NCBI GenBank assembly: GCA_018266075.1
Contig: JAFEBB010000011.1
Location: 62,001-126,000, forward strand
Direction: 5' to 3'
Length of the DNA stretch: 64,000 nt
DNA from: Deltaproteobacteria bacterium
Lineage (GTDB): Bacteria; Myxococcota; Myxococcia; Myxococcales; SZAS-1
Positions 23,426 to 24,102 of the stretch are shown here, piece by piece. Both the position numbers and the translations under genes were made by a program. Within the stretch, counting starts at the first letter, position 1; every line of letters begins with the position of its first letter. The notes beneath the pieces were generated by a model, which was not told the DNA's origin, made no database searches, and saw nothing but the letters and a program-made list of their open reading frames with translations.

Positions 23426-23663
23426 TGAGGCCGCCGTCCGCGGAGGATGCGTCGTCCCCCACCCGCGAGCCACGCACGGCGCGCTGAGCGGGGCAGCGTC
23501 CGCGCGGTTCAGCAGAGGCACGCGTCGCAACATCGGACGCGGAGGCCAAGGCTCCTGGCGAGGACGCGGCCTTCGCCGCGGGCCGGGCAGAGCGCGCGGC
23601 CGCTGCCGTCCCCGGCTCGCGGCGGCCCCACCGCTATGTTCGGGCCCACGAGGGACCCGTCGG

Positions 23664-23736
23664 AGCTGATCAAGGGATTCGAACCCTCAACAGCCGGATC
23701 TCAAGTCCGGTGCTCTACCCGTTGAGCTAGATCGGC
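23664..23736 (-). tRNA. tRNA with anticodon UGA but no long variable arm (Ser-like anticodon, atypical)
   Basis: A 73-nt cloverleaf: acceptor GCCGATC/GATCAGC with one C-A mismatch, D arm TAGCTCAACGGGTAGAGCA, anticodon arm CCGGA-CTTGAGA-TCCGG, five-base variable loop CTGTT, T arm GAGGG-TTCGAAT-CCCTT, discriminator T, no encoded CCA. The anticodon TGA would read the Ser codon UCA, but bacterial tRNA-Ser needs a long variable arm, which is missing. Position 37 is G rather than the usual A for U-starting codons. It may be a pseudo-tRNA or a tRNA with non-Ser charging. The Ser label is only from the anticodon. Confidence 0.7.
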
Positions 23737-24102
23737 GATGGAGCTCTCGCTCCAGCGAGCGCGTTTTCAAGGCGCGTGTCTGGGTCGCTTTCTTCGGAAG
23801 CCGCTGCAGCAATGTCCGCGCGGAACGCGAGCCGTCGTGGCCGTAGCCGTCTTGCCCGCGCCGCCGGCACAGCCCCGCGTGCCCGTTGCCTGCGACATCG
23901 ACGCGCGCTCTGACGGACAGCAGCCAGAGAGCCTGACGGATGATGGTTCGCTGTGCGTGAGGATTGAAGTAGCGTCCCCCGCCACGCCCCATCCCCGGCC
24001 CTTCCCCGTCTCACGCGGGGAAGGGGCGTCTGCTTGGGCGTCCTCGAACGAGCCAAGAACCACGCGCCACGATCGGGAAGGCCGATCCGGCCGGAGAGTG
24101 AA
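23737..24102. other. Intergenic stretch without recognisable gene
   Basis: Between the tRNA and the prolyl oligopeptidase gene. Short readings exist on both strands but none has coding-like third-position bias, a ribosome site or a recognisable motif. I see no repeat or clear terminator apart from a short GGGGAAGGGG run near 24017. The stretch on the other side of the tRNA (23426-23663) is also featureless and very GC-rich. Confidence 0.5.

Follow-up and report, generated by a model that had tools for sequence, protein, structure and literature searches.

What kind of RNA comes from a gene that combines the UGA anticodon of a serine tRNA with the short variable loop of a class I tRNA? The question is raised by a locus in a 64,000-nucleotide stretch of a Deltaproteobacteria bacterium of the order Myxococcales (assembly GCA_018266075.1, contig JAFEBB010000011.1). 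This stretch, hereafter the window, corresponds to G000:C11:62001-126000, where G000 is the genome of the organism (7.84 Mb in 166 contigs). The only tRNA gene that ARAGORN calls in the window (23662-23736, minus strand, anticodon UGA) lies upstream of a gene for a slipin, an SPFH/Band-7 protein, and we are confident that the locus encodes a slipin-linked tRNA-like RNA and not tRNA-Ser. Few triplets in biology are as conserved as anticodons. Here, unexpectedly, the triplet differs between related loci about six times more often than the third codon positions of the slipin gene, while the rest of the tRNA stands nearly still.

The tRNA-like gene and its slipin-linked relatives

The gene matches the Rfam tRNA family RF00005 with 65.4 bits (gathering score 29; E = 5.8e-12 for the 64-kb window), far above chance, and ranks 24 among the 68 tRNA matches of G000. 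Together with the ARAGORN call, this bears out the original prediction, made from the letters of the window, of a class I-shaped tRNA gene with a UGA anticodon. The parsed sequence, GCCGATC-TA-GCTCAACGGGTAGAGC-A-CCGGA-CTTGAGA-TCCGG-CTGTT-GAGGG-TTCGAAT-CCCTT-GATCAGC-T, followed by CCG, agrees with its details as well: the long variable arm is missing (the variable loop has 5 nt), a G occupies position 37, 3′ of the triplet, and the acceptor stem forms 6/7 pairs, including G1-C72, with a single mismatch of C3 opposite A70. Base 73 is U and the CCA end is not encoded. Minimum-free-energy folding by itself fails to recover the cloverleaf of this RNA (z = -0.94).

A search for a normal tRNA-Ser(UGA) elsewhere in G000, proposed as a check alongside that prediction, finds a class II gene with a long variable arm at G000:C8:17136-17222. 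The two share the anticodon and six of seven loop bases (CTTGAGA in the window, CTTGAAA in tRNA-Ser), whereas the window RNA lacks the long variable arm, has G37 and an acceptor mismatch, and belongs to a set of related loci in which the anticodon is not kept. A serine tRNA was rejected on the 5-nt variable loop and on an anticodon that differs among orthologs (20 anticodons in 47 seven-nt loops).

What unites the family is genomic position rather than the anticodon. When 60 relatives were searched at the DNA level, 46 gave matches, comprising ordinary tRNA-His, tRNA-Trp and others along with isolated tRNA-shaped genes bearing other anticodons; a search with one of these isolated genes matched 40 of the 145 genomes of the order at E = 1e-8, and two of the matched contigs carry the name Corallococcus. 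The same slipin gene follows the tRNA-like gene in 30 of the 31 loci compared, the last stretch (L078) ending too soon. A close slipin ortholog (E < 1e-120) is present in 63 of the 147 genomes of the class that were searched, and in 55 of these 63 a tRNA-like gene could be parsed upstream on the same strand; many of the genomes are close relatives and not independent. The remaining eight are G111 (the slipin-side copy is a 3′ part, with a full copy on another contig), G114 (at a contig end), G098 (slipin lies within a tRNA array), G023 (an ambiguous, tRNA-Arg-shaped candidate), and G082, G138, G140 and G143, which are taken up below. The G098 array tRNA and the G023 candidate were excluded from the anticodon count and all later counts, and three of the 58 copies used for the structural counts (G111b, G114b and G138b) are not demonstrated to be adjacent to slipin. 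In the 47 of 60 parsed rows where the script found a start, the first plausible slipin start codon lies 185-375 nt from the tRNA-like gene (305 nt downstream in the window); in G142 and G144 the two are about 1 kb apart.

An attachment site, or a tRNA relic of integrative elements, would explain G111, where the partial copy beside slipin (L160, on G111:C11) and the full copy on the other contig (L100, on G111:C24; anticodon UUG, as in G110) look like one integration event at the tRNA-like gene. It does not explain the position upstream of slipin in 55/63 genomes, nor anticodon and T stems kept through paired changes, which are not expected of relics; conservation has already largely refuted this reading, and we give it hardly any credence. 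A tRNA pseudogene was rejected on compensatory pairs and synteny, though the G082 copy looks broken. A low score and a lack of conservation, which had been named beforehand as marks of a pseudo-tRNA, are not what we find, given 65.4 bits and a tRNA-like gene recurring upstream of slipin in most genomes with the ortholog.

The structure itself was counted over 58 parsed copies, 53 of them distinct, with a parser that fixes the ends of the D arm and the T loop and chooses loop and variable-loop lengths favouring pairing; the D stem, formed in 58/58, is no test, since the search pattern fixed it. All five T-stem pairs form in 58/58 copies, and the pairs of the anticodon stem form in 58, 58, 58, 58 and 49 of 58, both sides of the stem changing together, as in CGAGA/TCTCG, CAAGA/TCTTG and CCGGA/TCCGG. 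The nine rows with a T.T closing pair in this stem comprise two 7-nt, one 6-nt and six 5-nt loops, the last six being alternatively readable as 7-nt loops on 4-bp stems. In the acceptor stem, the four inner pairs form in 51-56 of 58 copies and the tip pairs 1-72, 2-71 and 3-70 in 23, 26 and 34. Full 7/7 pairing is reached in 11 copies, base 73 varies, and CCA is encoded in none of the 58, although it could still be added by an enzyme. The pair and CCA counts together indicate conservation of the elbow side and the anticodon arm but not of the charging end.

These features bear directly on whether the RNA could be a working tRNA, one that reads the codon matching its anticodon, possibly inserting a different amino acid as deliberate mistranslation, or that is held as a stress reserve. 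The high tRNA score, the 6/7 acceptor pairs and G1-C72 of the window copy, and an upstream motif common to some real tRNA genes (see below) would suit such a role, yet the acceptor tip is often unpaired, base 73 is variable, no copy encodes CCA, and the anticodon differs between sister species. The anticodon loop has 5, 6 or 8 nt rather than 7 in 11 of the 58 copies, and U33 is missing in 9 of 36 distinct 7-nt loops, both of which speak against decoding. We therefore consider a working tRNA very improbable, and the suggestion in the original prediction that UCA might be read with a non-Ser amino acid finds no support in 20 anticodons among related loci, a degenerate acceptor tip and CCA in 0/58 copies.

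Anticodon variation between sister species

Variability was assessed in 15 non-overlapping sister pairs, limited to less than 35% difference at slipin third positions and drawn from the 38 genomes, among 60 parsed rows, in which a 7-nt loop and the slipin frame were found. Anticodon bases 34-36 differ at 24 of 45 sites (53%) and the other loop bases at 20 of 60. The tRNA body outside the loop differs at 52/965 sites (~5%), the leader at 262/2785 and the spacer at 320/4408 (7-9% for these flanks), and slipin third codon positions at 464/5250 (8.8%). The difference between anticodon and slipin third positions gives a Fisher P of 5e-14, variability here meaning counts on pairs rather than the output of a formal selection model. 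Three copies (G108, G116 and G114b) differ from one another solely in the triplet, which reads UGU, GAU and CUU, respectively.

The triplets nevertheless stay within narrow bounds. The 47 seven-nt loops hold 20 distinct anticodons, and all 20 are among the 44 anticodons of real tRNAs (P = 0.0002 for uniform and P = 0.001 for matched composition); none begins with A and none reads a stop codon. The bases flanking the triplet match those of the real G000 tRNA with the same anticodon at 98 of 140 positions against 86.3 expected (P = 0.006), and 5 of 35 loops are completely identical to a real G000 loop of the same anticodon, the reference being the tRNAs of G000 and not those of each species. Restriction to real anticodons and tRNA-like flanks together describe a variation that is fast yet remains tRNA-like.

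These numbers also bear on two explanations in which nothing selects for change. In the first, the tRNA-like fold is a cis-acting leader in the slipin mRNA that controls slipin expression, through cutting by RNase P/Z or by binding either slipin or some tRNA-binding protein; the anticodon would then vary for want of a reader. The position on the same strand, 185-375 nt ahead of the start codon in 47 rows, the kept anticodon and T stems, and the loops that are not 7 nt long are all in keeping with such a leader. However, an unread loop should drift like its flanks, at 7-9% instead of 53%, and should neither remain within real anticodons (20/20) nor track the bases around them; the separation of about 1 kb in G142 and G144 is also difficult for a leader. 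We regard this explanation as unlikely.

In the second, the anticodon loop belongs to a leader element derived from a tRNA and is replaced time and again through gene conversion by real tRNA genes. The likeness of the loops to real tRNA loops of the same anticodon, and copies alike save for the triplet, as in G108, G116 and G114b, could arise in this way. Yet conversion tracts would be expected to bring stem bases with them, whereas in those three copies the stem is constant while the triplet changes, and full matches to a real loop are few (the 5 of 35 above, compared with G000 tRNAs only). Overall, gene conversion without selection seems to us improbable.

A promoter-like motif and the genes behind it

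A GTCAG-N16/17-CGTC motif, which by its shape we take to be a promoter of the extracytoplasmic function (ECF) type, lies 125-230 nt upstream of the tRNA-like gene in 53 of the 55 slipin-linked copies, and one of the two misses has merely 8 nt of upstream sequence. The 54,725 bases farther upstream of the 55 copies contain no match, and the window contains a single one on either strand. Because the motif was first recognised by visual inspection of 31 of these loci, many of which are closely related, the count of 53/55 is partly circular, and the independent support is the presence of the motif in distant groups and at other genes. A strict sigma-54 pattern matched 0 of the 55 upstream stretches, and RtcR has no match in G000.

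Across G000, the form GTCAGG-N15/16-CGTC has 46 matches, against 21 for the reversed control. Seven of the 46 lie within 450 nt upstream of tRNA genes (0.06 expected), and four tRNA-linked matches remain when the tRNA-like gene and a tRNA array are set aside (P = 3e-7); no tRNA or tmRNA is found near any of the 21 control matches. A further match lies 95 nt ahead of tmRNA. Pfam searches, run on the IF-3 locus and on 13 of the 17 downstream proteins that reach 90 aa, place the motif before two class I release factors (RF1 and RF2 by our reading), IF-3, ribosomal protein L10, an RNB-domain exonuclease, an RNA ligase, a metallophosphoesterase, a GNAT acetyltransferase, a MutS-like protein (read as MutS2), a sigma factor, an Hsp70 and a multiubiquitin. 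It also precedes a sigma-like gene (L214), a weak match below the Pfam cut-off, which is a candidate regulator of the regulon. Of the control matches, 14/21 fall in coding-like frames; among their downstream frames, Pfam searches on 7 of 11 gave four matches, none to a translation or RNA-repair family.

A similar set of genes appears in G085, a Corallococcus-group genome in which 20 of 32 motif loci were examined, with Pfam searches on 16 of 19 downstream proteins. The motif precedes an RNB exonuclease, two rtcB genes, an RF-1-domain protein, an RNA ligase, YqeY, a MutS-like protein, an ABC ATPase, an IF-2 N-terminal region, a sigma-like gene, ThiF and VWA proteins and an HNH endonuclease; three downstream proteins have no Pfam family, and two motif loci begin with tRNA pairs. 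Three of the five rtcB genes of G085 (seven matches merged into five) have the motif within 300 nt upstream. In four relatives, 12 of 138 motif matches lie within 500 nt upstream of listed tRNAs, where about 0.1 would be expected. The motif is rarer overall there than the reversed control (138 vs 224), and only its placement is therefore informative. Taken together, we think it probable that the tRNA-like gene belongs to a translation/RNA-repair regulon.

Several other loci carry the motif. In G000 it directly precedes a divergent EF-Tu paralog (L188, G000:C15:41230; Pfam GTP_EFTU, 192 bits), and it lies 301 nt upstream of the first tRNA, and again inside the array, in an array of ~25 divergent tRNAs (G000:C81:24936-29310; L038, L095). 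Two YrlA-like RNAs, weak matches of 37.4 and 34.5 bits (cut-off 69), occupy L213:1142-1414 (minus strand, G000:C63), with the motif on one side and on the other a gene that shares 68% identity with the G085 VWA protein; this VWA-like gene is divergent from the sigma-like L214, which itself carries the motif.

Proposed role and related systems

We lean towards reading the locus as a Band-7/slipin-associated tRNA-like RNA of an RNA-repair or translation-rescue response, whose changing anticodon loop would act as bait for anticodon ribonucleases; among the options in the original prediction, that of a regulatory or decoy RNA fits best. The tRNA-like RNA would be transcribed from the GTCAG-N16/17-CGTC motif, excised from the slipin leader or folded within it, and left uncharged. 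A tRNA mimic without a kept charging end would then be produced, upon translation or RNA damage, along with slipin as a scaffold protein. Its anticodon loop may soak up anticodon nucleases, or be cut as a signal, the nucleases being perhaps toxins of rivals, of phages or of the cell itself. On this bait mechanism our judgement is evenly divided. Myxobacteria are known for predation and fighting, and we propose that the anticodon changes fast because the threat does. More tentatively, the anticodon may be under diversifying selection in an evolutionary race against toxins that cut anticodons, the RNA serving as bait and one dedicated sigma factor running slipin, RNA ligases, tmRNA, release factors and tRNA arrays.

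A number of observations pull the other way. No tRNA-like gene was found upstream of slipin in G138, G140 and G143 (3/63 genomes), and the one in G082 is broken in its D arm. Three of the 15 sister pairs have identical anticodons, some loops depart from 7 nt as described above, and fast anticodon change could come about by gene conversion with real tRNAs and without selection. For the regulon, several G000 motif matches precede genes with no obvious link to translation, and motif matches fall in coding-like frames at 7 of 43 G000 loci (the IF-3 locus being one) and at 8 of 20 G085 loci, including one rtcB, the RNA ligase and MutS2. The overall rarity of the motif in the four relatives counts here too. 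Neither of the two rtcB genes of G000 has the motif in the surrounding 10 kb, and Pfam searches of six window proteins near the tRNA-like gene gave no RNA-repair family.

If the proposal is true, myxobacteria possess a translation-damage regulon containing a tRNA anticodon that evolves like an antigen, and, if the RNA is a bait, the record of its anticodons would reveal which tRNAs are attacked in nature. The shared motif further predicts one sigma factor linking tRNA arrays, tmRNA, release factors, RNA ligases and the slipin/tRNA-like pair.

The RNA has reported counterparts. A 2016 abstract by Burroughs and Aravind reportedly describes RNA-repair systems whose SPFH/Band-7 modules include a ‘novel tRNA-like molecule’. 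Such modules would have in common with the present loci a Band-7/slipin gene preceded by a tRNA-like RNA and, possibly, a connection with RNA-repair genes. The Myxococcales copies differ from these modules in an ECF-like upstream motif in place of a sigma-54-like site (0/55), in the lack of an RtcR match in G000, in the families of the window neighbours that match Pfam, and in an anticodon that is measurably hypervariable. The open-access papers searched included none relevant to a hypervariable anticodon or a Band-7-associated tRNA; the 2016 work falls outside that coverage, so novelty is unproven. Going by that abstract, this kind of RNA is already known. As far as the literature searched shows, three points appear to be new: the measured anticodon hypervariability, the confinement of the triplet to real anticodons, and a motif that the tRNA-like gene has in common with translation and RNA-repair genes in Myxococcales.

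A second parallel is YrlA. According to Hughes et al. 2020 (PMC7790460), bacterial Y RNAs such as YrlA contain a tRNA-like domain and are encoded in an rsr-yrlBA-rtcBA operon; the authors raise competitive inhibition of an anticodon nuclease as one possibility, and in Salmonella the tRNA-like domain of YrlA is itself uncut. The two systems would thus share a tRNA-like RNA adjoining a putative scaffold protein in an RNA-repair setting, but the window RNA is associated with slipin and not with Ro/Rsr. At the gathering threshold, YrlA (Rfam RF02553) has no match in the window, where RF00005 alone matched. In Anabaena, PMC10272220 describes a translation-stress regulon under TrcR that comprises a 26-tRNA operon, rtcB and the slipin alr0740. 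Like the regulon proposed here, it brings tRNA arrays, rtcB and slipin together, but under another regulator.

Slipin loci farther afield show related arrangements. Burkholderia cenocepacia (L178) has a tRNA-like gene with a 6-nt loop upstream of slipin, Photobacterium (L179) has two in tandem, and in Citrobacter freundii (L177) slipin lies beside rtcR and a nucleotidyltransferase gene; the slipin loci of Escherichia coli and Burkholderia have a sigma-54-like site upstream. Upstream of slipin in E. coli (L176:5524) and Citrobacter, only a T-arm-like piece was seen by eye, and a nucleotidyltransferase gene lies downstream. Upstream of the more distant Myxococcota slipins L164-L173 (short stretches in L169 and L170), ARAGORN calls no tRNA; Rfam does detect one in G157 (L164:2033-2104, 53.2 bits). 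At L165:946-1010 (G185), upstream of a distant slipin with no ARAGORN tRNA, there is a YrlA-like match of 39.2 bits (cut-off 69). None of eight distant slipin paralogs examined has a tRNA-like gene upstream, and seven of the eight (L148-L152, L154 and L155; 33-39% identical to the window slipin) carry the promoter-like motif in the upstream stretch. The G098 slipin (L156:8483-11962, G098:C72), matched except for its N-terminal 88 residues, is surrounded by an array of at least 17 tRNAs that also holds an HNH endonuclease gene.

Table 1. Features of the tRNA-like/slipin locus, in window coordinates
Feature	Position	Strand	Basis
Slipin gene, SPFH/Band-7 protein, 370 aa	22246..23358	-	Pfam Band_7
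tRNA-like RNA, class I cloverleaf, anticodon UGA	23664..23736	-	Rfam RF00005, ARAGORN, 58 parsed copies (53 distinct)
Anticodon triplet, hypervariable in related loci	23701..23703	-	Sister-pair comparison
Presumed 5′ leader, motif to tRNA-like gene	23737..23905	-	5′ end inferred from motif position
Promoter-like motif GTCAGG-N16-CGTC	23912..23937	-	Pattern match; promoter function inferred

The main features of the window locus are collected in Table 1. The slipin matches Band_7 with 101 bits over residues 143-314; it has no match among the PADLOC defence families, and the phage collection searched contains no relative of it at E of 1e-15 or lower. Neighbouring genes with a Pfam match encode a prolyl oligopeptidase, a metallo-beta-lactamase-fold protein and a kinase. 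Directly upstream of the tRNA-like gene, positions 23738-23780 fold into a hairpin at -15.6 kcal/mol (z = -2.03).
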